A stretch of DNA of 64,000 nt. Origin: Faecalicatena orotica. GTDB taxonomy: Bacteria; Bacillota; Clostridia; Lachnospirales; Lachnospiraceae. Every line of letters starts with the position of its first letter. Position 1 is the stretch's first letter. Location: contig NZ_QGDL01000001.1 of NCBI RefSeq assembly GCF_003149245.1, positions 585,089 through 649,088 of the forward strand, written 5' to 3'. The notes below the pieces were generated by a model, which had not been told where the DNA came from, searched no databases, and worked only from the letters and a program-made list of their open reading frames with translations. Made by a program: the position numbers and the translations under genes. Positions 10,988 through 16,613 of the stretch are shown here, piece after piece.

Positions 10988-11902
10988 TCAAATGCCTCTT
11001 TCCTTCACCCAGATTTCCATACATGGGCATTCTGCAACATCCTTATAGTATTTTTCAGCCGAAAAGGGTTCTGTCACAATCCGGCGGTTTTTCAGCCATA
11101 TTTCGAATAAATATCTATTCGCCTGATTTAATGCTGTTGTAACAAGTTCCACGAATGATTCCGCTTCAATCCTGCATACGATATATTCACCTGCCGGCAA
11201 TAACCGCTTAACCATGCCATTCCTCCCTGCCTCTGCGTTTACGGCCCTGCCGCCTGCAAAGTAAAGAAATGTACCTGTTTCAAAGCTGGCCGAATGAGAC
11301 ATTCCAAGTTCAATACCACCATTGATTACATCTTCCGCCCCTGTTTTCTTCTCATGGAATTCACGCCACAGTTCCCCGGGGACATCGATCCCGGTACTTT
11401 CTCCGGCCGGGACCTGCCCGGCAATGCTGACCGCCTTTTCCAGTCCCAGATACGGCTCCGGCTGATGCAGGACCTGTCTCTGTATTTCCAACACGATCCC
11501 ATCTGCAATAAGCGGAACATTCTCGTCTGCCATTATATAATTCATGGAAAGCTGCGGCCGGTCAAAAGTATTCAGCATAGGCTGTGTCTTCCTGTACTCC
11601 TCCGGTGTGATCTGATAGGTCTCTCTGAAAGCTCTTGTAAAGTTCGCATGATCGGAAAAACCATAATCAAGCGCCGTATCCAGAATTTTTCTTTTTATAT
11701 CCTTTAGGTCTTCCGCAGCCCTGGCCAGACGTCTGAGTTTTATATACTCCTGGACCGTTTTTCTCACAAGACGTTTAAACAGTCTCTGATAATAAAACAG
11801 AGATAATCCGGCAATACCGGCTAATGTTTCGTTCCTTATTTCTTCTGCCAGATGTTCTTCTATATAATCCAGCGTTTTGTCCATTGTTTCCCACGTATAC
11901 AT
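10988..11902 (-). CDS. AraC-family regulator with GyrI-like effector domain
   Basis: Residues about 5-105 form a double AraC helix-turn-helix (NETLAGIAGLSLFYYQRLFKR, then ILDTALDYGFSDHANFTRAF). From about residue 120 a GyrI-like/AraC effector-binding domain follows, rich in Glu and aromatic residues, of the type found in Rob, MarA-like and multidrug-sensing regulators. AGGAGG precedes the ATG. It lies 3' of and in the same direction as the next ABC transporter operon's neighbourhood but is not overlapping it, so a link to drug or peptide efflux is only suggestive. Confidence 0.88.
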   Translation of the reverse strand: MYTWETMDKTLDYIEEHLAEEIRNETLAGIAGLSLFYYQRLFKRLVRKTVQEYIKLRRLARAAEDLKDIKRKILDTALDYGFSDHANFTRAFRETYQITPEEYRKTQPMLNTFDRPQLSMNYIMADENVPLIADGIVLEIQRQVLHQPEPYLGLEKAVSIAGQVPAGESTGIDVPGELWREFHEKKTGAEDVINGGIELGMSHSASFETGTFLYFAGGRAVNAEAGRNGMVKRLLPAGEYIVCRIEAESFVELVTTALNQANRYLFEIWLKNRRIVTEPFSAEKYYKDVAECPCMEIWVKERGI

Positions 11903-12032: not shown

Positions 12033-13871
12033 TTACTGTTCCTCTAAGCTGCCAAGCAGCTGAAGGGGTTCCTTCTTTAAACTTTCTTTCATGCAGCAGG
12101 AAGAAATCAGTAATGCAGCGACTAACAGCCCTCCGCCTGTTCCGGCCGCCAGAACGGGGTCCGGTTCCGGCCAATAGACCTTTTCTTCTTTTGTATTCTC
12201 TGTAATCAGATTGCTGTAAGCCGTATCAAAGACCACCTCCGTATCTGCCTTTTTTGCAGCTGTTTCTGTCGCTTTCCAGCCCGCTGTACTTCCCAGAATA
12301 CTTCCAGCTGCGGCGAGTACGAGAATCCCGGTCAGAATAGATCTTGAACACTGCCGCTTCGTCCTTCCAAGCAGCCGTTCCACCGCAATACGTTCCTGCT
12401 GTCCGGTTATAAACAGGTTGGCGAAGAACAGCAGTATCATAACAGACATCACGCAGCCGCTGACCAGAAATATCCACGACATCAGCATACGGTTCTCAAT
12501 CCCTTCCTTCAGCTGGCTGTAGCCTTTATCGTAAAACGTGATCTTTAAGTCCTCAATCCCTTGCCTGTCCCATTTGTCCATGAACTCCTGTATGGTGCCG
12601 TTGGGAATCTGGAAAGATGTCGTAGCCCCTCGCATCCGGCTGAAAGCAGCGATATTATCTTTCCATGAATCTTCCGGGACCGCGTTCCAGGGGATCACTG
12701 CTTCATAGCGCCCGATCCCGTAAGAGCCGGTGCCGGTATCCTTTATCGTATAGATTCCCACGATCTCATAATCCTGTTCGTTGAATACAGAGTATATCTC
12801 TCCCTGTGCATTCAGAAATGAAAAGCTAAGTCCCCCGCCGCCTTTTCCTGAAAATGTATCTGTAGGCGCCTGTGCGTAATTTGCATAGTATAACGGTAGT
12901 GTCAGCTTATCCCCCAGAGATTTTCTAAGCAGTAAAGCCAGTGTATCCGGGATCAGGCATACCTTCTTCCCACTCTGGTATTCTTCCTCTGTGATATCAC
13001 GCCCCTCTGATATCACCACCTCGTCCCGGTAAAAGGGCATCAGAAGCTTTGTACCGTCGACCGGCTGGACAGGAATCGTATGATCATAACAATCCTGTTC
13101 CTGAGAAACTGCAAGCCAGCGTTGTCCCCGTTCTGTCTCATAGAACCCTTCCGTCACCTCATCGTATACCGGGCCTTCATTCGCTTCGTCATATACACGC
13201 TCTCCATCCAGTGTATATTGCGTTGAACAGATCCCATCGGTGATCTGGTACTCTGTGGTAAATTCATCTACTGCCTCACCGTCCGGCCTGCCGTGGACAG
13301 CCCCGATCTGGCTTAACTGCATGATATAAGTCTTTCCCGCCACAAATTCATCCGGGTCGGGGTTGGAATGTTCACAGACATAGACGACGTCGCTGCCGTT
13401 TAAATTCCCCTCCAGTACCCTTAATACCCGCATTTTTAACGAATGGTCTGCCACTGCTGTCTCCTCAGGGGTCACTTCCACTGTGATCATCCAGTCATGT
13501 CCGACTCCCTCATACAGTTCTTTTACATAAGCGCCGAAATATGGACGCTGCCGCGGTTTCAGCTGATAATCCGCCCCTTCAAAGTCCAGCACATCCTCAC
13601 TAATTCTGTCCCCATAAACAGGGCCTTTGAAATACCTGTAGGTTTTTAATCCTGCATCCCAATAAGACACGGTCCTAGAACCGACAGCCGTCTGTTCCAC
13701 AGTTCCTATTGTTGTAAAAATCTTCTCAAACTCCTGCATTCCAGTTCTGCTCATGTTCCACAGGTTTCCGCCCAGGGCCAGAAAGAATGCTGATATTCCG
13801 ATGAGAAAGAAAAACAGGAAACTTTTCAGAGGGCTTCTGAGCATCTGTTTCATGCTATAATAAAATGTCAT
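12033..13871 (-). CDS. FtsX/MacB-type ABC transporter permease
   Basis: Permease of the MacB/FtsX (type VII) class. One TM lies near residues 17-40, followed by an extracytoplasmic domain of about 430 residues rich in Asp, Glu and Tyr, then three TMs near 475-500, 530-550 and 580-600. This is a one-plus-three topology typical of mechanotransmission exporters or antimicrobial-peptide resistance pumps. I start it at ATG 13871 (GAGG, spacing 8); a GTG at 13880 is possible. It begins about 10 bp after the ATPase gene. It is the third gene of the MerR-permease/ATPase/permease operon, and pairs with the other permease to form a probable heteromeric complex. Confidence 0.88.
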   Translation of the reverse strand: MTFYYSMKQMLRSPLKSFLFFFLIGISAFFLALGGNLWNMSRTGMQEFEKIFTTIGTVEQTAVGSRTVSYWDAGLKTYRYFKGPVYGDRISEDVLDFEGADYQLKPRQRPYFGAYVKELYEGVGHDWMITVEVTPEETAVADHSLKMRVLRVLEGNLNGSDVVYVCEHSNPDPDEFVAGKTYIMQLSQIGAVHGRPDGEAVDEFTTEYQITDGICSTQYTLDGERVYDEANEGPVYDEVTEGFYETERGQRWLAVSQEQDCYDHTIPVQPVDGTKLLMPFYRDEVVISEGRDITEEEYQSGKKVCLIPDTLALLLRKSLGDKLTLPLYYANYAQAPTDTFSGKGGGGLSFSFLNAQGEIYSVFNEQDYEIVGIYTIKDTGTGSYGIGRYEAVIPWNAVPEDSWKDNIAAFSRMRGATTSFQIPNGTIQEFMDKWDRQGIEDLKITFYDKGYSQLKEGIENRMLMSWIFLVSGCVMSVMILLFFANLFITGQQERIAVERLLGRTKRQCSRSILTGILVLAAAGSILGSTAGWKATETAAKKADTEVVFDTAYSNLITENTKEEKVYWPEPDPVLAAGTGGGLLVAALLISSCCMKESLKKEPLQLLGSLEEQ

Positions 13872-13881
13872 GCCATACACC

Positions 13882-14559
13882 TCACTGTTCTTCTATTGAT
13901 ATCATTTTCCCGTCCTTCATTCTCATTTTAACGTCTGCCCCGGCCGCAATGTAGGGATTATGTGTCACAATAATGACTACATAATCTTTTTCATGCGCCA
14001 GTTTCAGCAGTAGTTCTACAATATTCTCCTCGTTCTCCGAGTCCAGATTCCCGGTTGGCTCATCAGCGAGGAGAATCTTCCCTCCTGCCGCCATTGCCCT
14101 TGCAATCGCAACTCTCTGCTGCTCACCCCCGCTCATCATCTTTGGATACTGCATCAGTTTCTTCCCGCTTAATCCTACTTCCTCCAGACATTCTACCGCT
14201 TTATCTTTTGCCGCTTTACGCGGGATTCCCTGAAGCTCCATTGGATACATGACATTTTCCCATGCAGTCAGAAGTGGAAATAAATGAAATGCCTGATATA
14301 CTACGGAGGCCTGCTTGCGCCTGTATGCATCCCGGTCGATTTCCGCCAGATTCTCTCCGTCTACAAGAATCCTGCCCTCTCCGGGCTGGTCCAGTCCTGC
14401 GAGCAGAGACAGAAATGTGCTTTTCCCGCTCCCGGATTCCCCTGTCACCGCATACATCTTCCCAGATTCAAATGTACAGGATACCTTTTTTACCGCTTCA
14501 ATCGTCTGGTATTTATTTTGATAAAAATAGCTGATATTTTCTACTTTAATTCTCTCCAT
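13882..14559 (-). CDS. ABC transporter ATP-binding protein (LolD/MacB class)
   Basis: ATPase of 225 residues with Walker A GESGSGKST (about 35-43), Q-loop near 84, signature MSGGEQQRVAIARAM and Walker B KILLADEPTGNLDS, which is the LolD/FtsE/MacB hallmark, and the H-loop VTHNPYIA. It energises the two FtsX-type permeases that flank it: upstream gene 9 bp before, downstream permease about 10 bp after. GAGAGGGA precedes the ATG. Confidence 0.94.
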   Translation of the reverse strand: MERIKVENISYFYQNKYQTIEAVKKVSCTFESGKMYAVTGESGSGKSTFLSLLAGLDQPGEGRILVDGENLAEIDRDAYRRKQASVVYQAFHLFPLLTAWENVMYPMELQGIPRKAAKDKAVECLEEVGLSGKKLMQYPKMMSGGEQQRVAIARAMAAGGKILLADEPTGNLDSENEENIVELLLKLAHEKDYVVIIVTHNPYIAAGADVKMRMKDGKMISIEEQ

Positions 14560-14568
14560 ATATCCCTC

Positions 14569-16488
14569 TCAATCTCTGTGTGATAACACAGCCGCAACGC
14601 TGAATCTTCCAAACATCCACATAGCCGCAGCCGTTCCTGCTGCATAGCAGGCCAGAAACAATACCCATACCAGCAGTGCATCCCTGATATCTGACGACCG
14701 GAATAAAAGTCCCGCCAGTGCTCCGGCCGCGCCGCCTGCTGCGGCCAGCAGAAAGTGTTCTGTAAAAAACAACAGGCTGCACCGTCTTCTGCCTGTTCCG
14801 AGTGCGCGCATAATGGCATATTCTTCCCGCCTTCCCTGCAGTAACAGGTGGGGCACGATATATCCAAGCATCACCACGACCAGGAGTACAAACGGAAGGA
14901 ACCCTTCCAGCAGCGACAGACTCTTTTTCAGACTTGTAACCGTATCTATGAAGACTGCATCATCAATTTTCAGACCGGCACCCGCAAAGGAGGCGGGTGA
15001 TCCCTGAATCACAGACTGAAGCCCCGCATCCTTCAATTCCTTTTTTAATGCATTGAGTTCCATTGGATCCTTTACAACAAAAGACAGAGAAGATGCAAAA
15101 TATGTTTTGCCGCAGTCTTCAAAAATCTGCTTTCCCATTTTGAGAGGCAGAATCACGTCCGGTACATCTGTCTCCTTATCTACATTGCTGAAATCACCGA
15201 TACCGACAACTTCCATACTCACAGTCTCAAGGGGTTCCCTTTCCAGACTGACACCTGCCATATTCTGCCGATACCGTTCCAAAGAAAAGGAAAGCGCATC
15301 TTTCATTTGTGCCTGTCTCTCTTCGGAAAATGTCGCATTCACGATACAGACATCCCTGCTCTCCTGAAACTTCTTCCAGTCCCAGCCGTCTGCCCATGCA
15401 ATATCCTCTTCTGAAAATTCTTCAACAGCATCCGTACGATTCATGCCTGTAAGCATATATAAATCGGATTCTTCCCCGCCAGAATCCTGAAGGTACCCCA
15501 GAAATTCCACTCCTTCTGCAATCTGTTTCGTATGGGAGGACCCATAGACCGTATCCAGTACCCGCTGTGGGATAAATAACCCTGACTTGAGTTCTGCACA
15601 GACGTTCCAGACCTGGGCTGATACAGTAAGTTTTTCGGGCAGCTCCTTTAGCTGCAATTTTGCGCTGTTAAGATTTCCGAGATAAAAGGACATGACCAGA
15701 ACAATCAGCAGGCTGATCACTCCATTCAGGATACTTTTCAGCCGGTGCCGCCGGATATTGACAGAAACCGTGTGCACTCCCTGAAAAAACATTCTCCTTT
15801 TTTCCGGAATCTCCCGTTCAATTTTTTCATATTTTTTTCTTTTGCAAACGATCTTCACCACAGCCTTACCTGTCTCTTCATTCCCCTCTAAGATTCTGGC
15901 CGCTGTGTAGGTAACTCCTTCCAGCGTAAATTCAGGATACATGCCCGGCTTTATCATCTGGAACTTCACGTTTTGCTCCAAGGCATACTCCCGCAGGGCT
16001 TTCTCAAACATCCCGGCCGTATTCACATCCTGTGATGCATAAAACGTAATCTTCCCCTGCTGCTCCTGAAGTGCCACATGCTTATAATCGTCCACAATTC
16101 TGGCAAATACGCCTCCGTTTTGAGACATGTTCTCCATCTTTTCCAGATAGCCATCCACATCGATCATTTCTGTTTTTTCTTTATGTATGCTCATGCAGAC
16201 CTCAACCGCCGCCTGAAGCTGTCTCTGCTGCTTCTGCAGGGCCTCCTGCTGCCGGGCAGCCGCTTCCTTAAGAGATACCTCTTCATTCAGGATACTTTCG
16301 ATTTCCTTCAACGGCATATCAAGCATCCGAAGCATCTTGATCAGTTTCAGACGCCGGACATCTTCTTTTGAATAATCTCTGTATGCATTCCCTGTCTCCC
16401 GGACCGGTTCGAGCAATCCCTGCTTTTCATAATAGCGTATGTTCTGCCTTGTGATACCAGTCAATTCTTCAACTTGTTTTGTATTCAA
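14569..16488 (-). CDS. MerR DNA-binding domain fused to FtsX-type ABC permease
   Basis: One continuous 639-residue frame joins two families that are normally separate. Residues 1-67 are a MerR winged helix (TKQVEELTGITRQNIRYYEK, then AYRDYSKEDVRRLKLIKML), and 70-120 form the dimerisation coiled coil. Residues about 120-240 are an unassigned cytoplasmic domain. A TM at about 253-272, an extracytoplasmic domain of about 250 residues, and three TMs near 527-550, 570-595 and 602-625 make a MacB/FtsX-type permease with the EYAIMRALGTGRRR loop. I start it at TTG 16488 because AAGGAGG lies 10 nt upstream; the longer frame adds a Gly-rich leader made of the ribosome binding site. First gene of the operon, behind a MerR-type promoter. 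A membrane-bound regulator that senses transporter state is inferred. Confidence 0.88.
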   Translation of the reverse strand: MNTKQVEELTGITRQNIRYYEKQGLLEPVRETGNAYRDYSKEDVRRLKLIKMLRMLDMPLKEIESILNEEVSLKEAAARQQEALQKQQRQLQAAVEVCMSIHKEKTEMIDVDGYLEKMENMSQNGGVFARIVDDYKHVALQEQQGKITFYASQDVNTAGMFEKALREYALEQNVKFQMIKPGMYPEFTLEGVTYTAARILEGNEETGKAVVKIVCKRKKYEKIEREIPEKRRMFFQGVHTVSVNIRRHRLKSILNGVISLLIVLVMSFYLGNLNSAKLQLKELPEKLTVSAQVWNVCAELKSGLFIPQRVLDTVYGSSHTKQIAEGVEFLGYLQDSGGEESDLYMLTGMNRTDAVEEFSEEDIAWADGWDWKKFQESRDVCIVNATFSEERQAQMKDALSFSLERYRQNMAGVSLEREPLETVSMEVVGIGDFSNVDKETDVPDVILPLKMGKQIFEDCGKTYFASSLSFVVKDPMELNALKKELKDAGLQSVIQGSPASFAGAGLKIDDAVFIDTVTSLKKSLSLLEGFLPFVLLVVVMLGYIVPHLLLQGRREEYAIMRALGTGRRRCSLLFFTEHFLLAAAGGAAGALAGLLFRSSDIRDALLVWVLFLACYAAGTAAAMWMFGRFSVAAVLSHRD

Positions 16489-16582: not shown

Positions 16583-16613
16583 ATTTTAAGGTGTATAGCA
16601 GGTATACAGTCAA
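16583..16613 (-). promoter_or_regulatory. MerR-type promoter of the fusion operon
   Basis: TTGACT (16608-16613) and TAAAAT (16583-16588) are 19 bp apart, the over-long spacing that MerR proteins correct by DNA distortion. The spacer holds the dyad TGTATA-N5-TATACA (16592-16608). The only MerR domain near it is encoded by the gene it drives. Confidence 0.8.

Follow-up and report, generated by a model that had tools for sequence, protein, structure and literature searches.

A MerR-type head fused to an FtsX-type ABC permease in Faecalicatena orotica: a probable membrane-bound autoregulator of its own transporter operon

The fused gene, its operon and its promoter

The window, a stretch of 64,000 nucleotides from Faecalicatena orotica, carries on its minus strand an operon whose first gene encodes in one chain a MerR head, a cytoplasmic middle domain without an assigned fold (hereafter Mid) and an FtsX-type permease (Table 1). 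The 639 amino acids of the fused protein are read from one frame that runs without interruption from a TTG start at 16488 to the stop at 14569, just as an earlier note on this DNA had described it; GGAGGGGG lies directly 5' of the TTG, and an in-frame GTG is also available 13 codons 5' of it. In Pfam, MerR_1 matched residues 1-69 (E 1.2e-19) and the MerR model residues 3-39, both above cut-off, the FtsX C-terminal model matched residues 533-597 (E 2.4e-8), and the MerR-DNA-bind model reached 23.6 bits against a cut-off of 25.4. The best-scoring solved chains for the head are the MerR-type regulators 3qao and MtaN (1jbg).

Table 1. Features of the fused gene, its promoter and its operon in the window
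Feature	Position	Strand	Basis
MerR-type promoter, TTGACT-19 bp-TAAAAT	16583..16613	-	sequence, pattern search
Dyad TGTATA-N5-TATACA inside the spacer, presumed operator	16592..16608	-	sequence
Fused gene: MerR head, Mid and FtsX permease, 639 aa	14569..16488	-	ORF, Pfam, homologs
MerR winged-helix DNA-binding domain, residues 1-69	16282..16488	-	Pfam MerR_1
Presumed dimerisation helix region, residues 70-110, Cys at 98	16159..16281	-	low-confidence model
Mid, alpha/beta domain, residues 111-232, common to stand-alone MerR proteins	15793..16158	-	phmmer
FtsX-type permease part, residues 233-639: TM1, outer domain, TM2-4	14572..15792	-	Pfam, hydropathy
ABC ATPase, 225 aa, Walker A, signature and Walker B motifs	13882..14559	-	ORF, Pfam, motifs
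Second FtsX permease, 615 aa, 4 TM, larger outer domain	12033..13880	-	ORF, Pfam, hydropathy

Hydropathy predicts transmembrane helices at residues 253-271, 531-549, 578-596 and 605-623, that is, one helix, then about 259 residues on the outside and then three more helices, which agrees with the four-TM permease and external domain of about 250 residues read earlier, and the topology predicted from it places the MerR head in the cytoplasm. The FtsX C-terminal domain, the 1+3 arrangement of helices, the outer domain and the adjacent ATPase together are those of an FtsX/MacB-type transporter. We considered an internal Met start at M233, at the joint, from which a separate permease would be made; none of the 9 other fused proteins has Met at that column; one of them (G037) has Met two residues past it, and across the fused proteins the joint holds no conserved Met.

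Prediction of the whole-chain structure from three sequences gave a mean pLDDT of 48 and a pTM of 0.25, and the model was used for local helices only and not for claims about the fold. It places a helix at residues 73-102, with pLDDT falling from 70 to 36 across residues 71-100. Mid modelled alone reached a mean pLDDT of 68; Foldseek gave no match to it at E <= 0.001, and the best VIA-align Z score of 5.4 (Mog1, followed by SciW and others) lies within the range that is common for that tool.

The ATPase gene follows the fused gene at a distance of 9 nt and the second permease gene follows that of the ATPase at 1 nt, and Pfam, motifs and the four predicted helices agree with the earlier assignment of these two genes as the ATPase and a second FtsX permease. 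LolD is the model that gives the ATPase its highest score, below the cut-off of that model, and no family model that names a substrate was matched by the ATPase or by either FtsX-like permease. No histidine kinase or response regulator gene is adjacent, the two genes that flank the operon encoding an AraC-type regulator and an aldo/keto reductase. The AraC-type regulator (10988-11902), directly downstream of the operon and on the same strand, carries a GyrI-like effector-binding domain that scores just under the Pfam cut-off.

The promoter that the earlier note had placed upstream of the fused gene reads TTGACT-GTATACCTGCTATACACCT-TAAAAT on the minus strand, with the dyad within its 19 bp. Promoters targeted by the MerR family have a spacer of 19-20 bp that holds a dyad (PMC10189885), and the promoter in the window has this layout. 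A simple scan for promoters and terminators, which uses spacers of 16-18 bp and is blind to a 19-bp promoter, gave no more matches than shuffled sequence.

Recurrence of the fusion and its relatives

The full-length fusion, without internal stops, is present in at least 9 of the 397 sampled genomes of the family, its own included, and in 7 genera; these counts are lower bounds, as the searches scored a few best candidates in each genome. In all 8 other full-length genomes the fused gene, the ATPase and the second permease follow each other in the same order, so that the recurrent architecture with a constant operon order that the earlier note had named as support for a real system was indeed found. 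Among the best candidates scored, no further full-length fusion appeared in the order sample (392 genomes, E <= 1e-25) or in the class and phylum samples (291 and 199 genomes, E <= 1e-40).

Altogether ten fused genes were compared, in a comparison of loci that left out G748 and G263. One of the ten is truncated (G704, same family; L093:7489-8805): it has its promoter, the head, Mid and TM1, breaks off within the outer domain and lacks TM2-4. Neither the matching ATPase nor the second permease lies beside it, and a distant ABC ATPase is encoded about 1.3 kb further on, on the opposite strand. This copy could be a decaying gene, or else encode a regulator whose action does not require transport. 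In each of the 9 other fused proteins the head and helix (residues 1-110) are the most conserved of four segments, with 51-91% identity to the window protein, and within the close group the MerR head is 71-91% identical as against 41-54% for TM1 and the outer domain. Mid of the G037/G408 branch is 18-20% identical to that of the window protein. An unrooted tree of the MerR-Mid part separates the 10 fused rows from 17 solo rows (support 98/93), and an unrooted permease tree separates 9 fused from 6 unfused rows, though its branches are long and the support for the split is weak (74/75). The simplest reading of these sequences would be a single fusion event; the fused genes look like one lineage, and their conservation across genomes therefore does not stand for many independent events.

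The solo rows are MerR-Mid proteins which end in two (13 proteins) or one (4 proteins) C-terminal hydrophobic helices at the place where the fusion continues into the permease, their profile matches extending to position 194-241 of the fused model. They come from 17 of 20 loci, L106 being left out for an overlapping longer frame, L122 as a near-copy of L121, and L124 for lack of a Mid match; the last, a MerR relative matching to position 194, has no predicted TM helix. No relative of either permease (Perm1 or Perm2) was found within the 9-17 kb examined around the solo loci. In the presumed dimerisation helix, close to where it ends, a cysteine, C98 (window 16195-16197), is kept in 26 of the 27 fused and solo rows. 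From these sequences, MerR with Mid is an existing type of membrane-anchored regulator, the C-terminal anchor of which seems to have been exchanged for a permease.

The fused and the solo genes share the promoter layout. In the region from 300 bases before to 60 bases after each start, the form TTGAC-19 bp-TAnnnT, which was chosen after inspecting the promoters of the fused genes, occurs at 10/10 fused and 17/17 solo genes, the start of L109 having been placed at its MerR domain, with no promoter at an earlier start. Other spacers between 15 and 22 bp gave one match in the fused set (15 bp) and three in the solo set (21 bp each). The rows compared are related to each other. Among control ORFs, mechanically called at >= 150 aa in the same loci, the 19-bp form occurs at 11/417; of these, 7 have a MerR head match, and the control set includes the MerR genes L122 and L124, both with a 19-bp promoter.

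Searched as an exact pattern in 250 genomes of the family, the fused-gene promoter gave 21 sites and a reversed control pattern gave 0. Directly 5' of a MerR gene lie 17 of the 21 sites, 6 of them before fused genes, by construction, and 11 before other MerR genes, one of which is also in the solo set; one further site is near a contig end and three precede genes other than MerR. Predicted TM helices are found in 10 of the 11 non-fused MerR proteins, the exception being L142, a frame of 97 residues. The three sites before non-MerR genes are those of L131, L148 and L149, with clear dyads in L131 and L149, two sites that may be regulated in trans. Within its own genome the exact pattern matches at the window promoter alone; with up to 2 mismatches it gave 4 additional sites as against 3 for the reversed control, a difference too small to indicate further targets, and one of the weaker sites, 48 bases from another MerR match, is directed away from it.

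A further group of MerR ORFs, of 462-536 aa (L099-L104), carries an RDD membrane domain in 6/6 chosen relatives, and the 19-bp promoter is found at 5/6 of these genes, being absent at L099 and present at L101 after its start was likewise moved. Taken as a whole, the fusion appears to belong to a larger group of membrane-bound MerR proteins, most of which are under their own MerR-type promoters.

Unfused relatives of the permease were examined at six loci (G029, G739, G328, G078, G297 and G225), and a two-component system or a RiPP cluster lies beside two of them. At G029, genes for a response regulator and a histidine kinase directly precede those for permease 1, the ATPase and permease 2, an arrangement that suggests that a dedicated sensor fits this type of transporter. 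At G739 (L152:6035-15973) both permeases and the ATPase stand beside two proteins that score above cut-off, a CcpM radical SAM maturase of Cys-rich peptides and a peptide-maturation protein of TIGR04066, and two that stay under the cut-offs of their models, a subtilisin-like protease and an ABC exporter. No two-component or RiPP partner was found among the two, two and one neighbours tested at G328, G078 and G297, respectively; at G078 an HTH_3 regulator gene lies on the other strand, and G225 is at a contig end. That the transporter serves in peptide export or in defence against peptides is a reasonable guess and no more.

A pump that may control its own promoter

These data lend good support to a membrane-bound autoregulator, and we propose that this pump of some gut Lachnospiraceae probably sets its own level with no separate sensor. 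The earlier note had suggested that the permease itself is a transcription factor bound to the membrane and may control its own operon, and the recurrent fusion, the operon order and the conserved promoter fit such a reading of the sequence; its account was nevertheless incomplete, as MerR with Mid pre-exists as a membrane-anchored regulator. The reading that we favour, with moderate confidence, is that of a membrane-tethered MerR protein, the membrane part of which is half of an FtsX-type (MacB/LolCE-like) ABC transporter, and which, gated by the state of the transporter, activates its own operon. The MerR head, at the inner face of the membrane, would pair with a second head, and the paired heads would occupy the dyad in the 19-bp spacer of their own promoter. 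A change in the conformation or assembly of the transporter, whether on binding of a substrate, in the ATP cycle or when it pairs with the second permease, would be the trigger, and the signal would pass via Mid to the head, which would untwist the promoter as other MerR proteins do, so that more of the whole transporter would be made. The fusion, the order of the operon, the predicted topology, the conserved layout of the promoter and the strongest conservation in the head are given by the sequence alone; that the head binds the promoter, that it activates in the manner of MerR and that the state of the transporter is the signal, we infer. One point is awkward for such a mechanism, namely that a MerR dimer needs two fused chains, which counts against it if the transporter is a heterodimer of Perm1 and Perm2.

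It is conceivable, if rather unlikely, that the tethered protein regulates its operon without being driven by transport, its head or Mid sensing a cytoplasmic or membrane ligand and the permease being a mere anchor that fixes the ratio of regulator to transporter. The solo proteins, which have one or two TM helices, share the promoter layout and lack relatives of Perm1 and Perm2 in the neighbourhoods examined, point this way, and as they show MerR-Mid to be usable without this transporter, sensing of a ligand by Mid or head is possible; the relative without a predicted TM helix and the widely kept C98 are also in keeping with it. In contrast, Mid is poorly conserved in the G037/G408 branch even though the fusion and the promoter are kept there, and this low identity argues against a strict model of a Mid ligand and, equally, against a strict relay through Mid in the transport-gated mechanism that we prefer.

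Cleavage is a known mode of action of membrane-bound regulators, and the stretch of about 20 residues between Mid and TM1 could offer a protease a site near the joint, from which a soluble MerR head would be released to act off the membrane; we consider such regulated release improbable. Far less credible still is that the chain results from a frameshift or an assembly artefact, or that its head is a non-functional remnant of the fusion. While the fused genes look like one lineage and the G704 copy is truncated, nine full-length genes are free of internal stops, no part is as conserved as the head, and all ten genes retain the promoter layout. A frameshift between two genes and absence of the fused architecture in all relatives, by either of which the earlier note had said its reading would fall, are thus contradicted, and we reject the artefact on the recurrence of the full-length frame in the family.

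Relation to known systems and meaning

MerR regulators, membrane regulators of the ToxR/CadC type and flux-sensing BceAB-S modules are already known. The MerR regulators CueR, Mta, BmrR and AlbA are soluble, and the fused protein has the same N-terminal head, whereas the remainder of its chain is a membrane permease. With MacB, LolCDE and FtsX it shares TM1, the outer domain, three more TM helices, the FtsX C-terminal domain and an ATPase with its best, below-cut-off score against LolD, and differs from them in the added MerR head and Mid and in having two unequal permeases. The permease of BceAB-type transporters is single and large, with 10 TM helices, unlike the two separate, predicted 4-TM permeases of the operon in the window.

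At its promoter the fused gene resembles AlbA, for which, in the MerR promoter layout given in PMC10189885, the operator dyad overlaps the -35 element and the spacer is 19 bp. In BceAB-BceS, according to a proposal in PMC10314905, the promoter of the transporter is informed of transport cycling by the transporter itself, by way of a separate kinase and response regulator, whereas here the DNA-binding head lies within the permease chain. ToxR and CadC (PMC5936718) are membrane proteins whose N-terminal DNA-binding head lies in the cytoplasm, and the fused protein likewise has an N-terminal DNA-binding head that is cytoplasmic by predicted topology; unlike it, a four-TM transporter subunit, ToxR-like proteins are bitopic, with a single TM helix and an outer sensor domain, and their winged helix belongs to another family. 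A MerR head and an ABC permease in one chain with its own conserved promoter was not found among the matches listed from the open-licence PMC literature, in part the best 10 of 32 and 8 of 1,481, and phrase searches of that literature for a membrane-bound MerR regulator found none.

More tentatively, and with somewhat more doubt than belief, we suggest an undescribed class in Lachnospiraceae and some other Clostridia, consisting of MerR proteins that act on their own promoters and carry interchangeable membrane modules (a one- or two-TM anchor with Mid, other multi-TM parts, RDD, or an FtsX permease), in the FtsX version of which the cycle of the ABC transporter would mechanically twist the promoter of its own operon. 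If this is true, transporter, sensor and transcription factor are united in one molecule. Transport-coupled control of the Bce type requires a separate kinase and response regulator; one chain that is both half of an exporter and a MerR switch would be a minimal circuit from flux to promoter, and possibly a self-contained biosensor module. Beyond this, the fusion directs attention to a larger group of membrane-bound MerR proteins among common gut bacteria, whose recognisable promoter would predict their targets.
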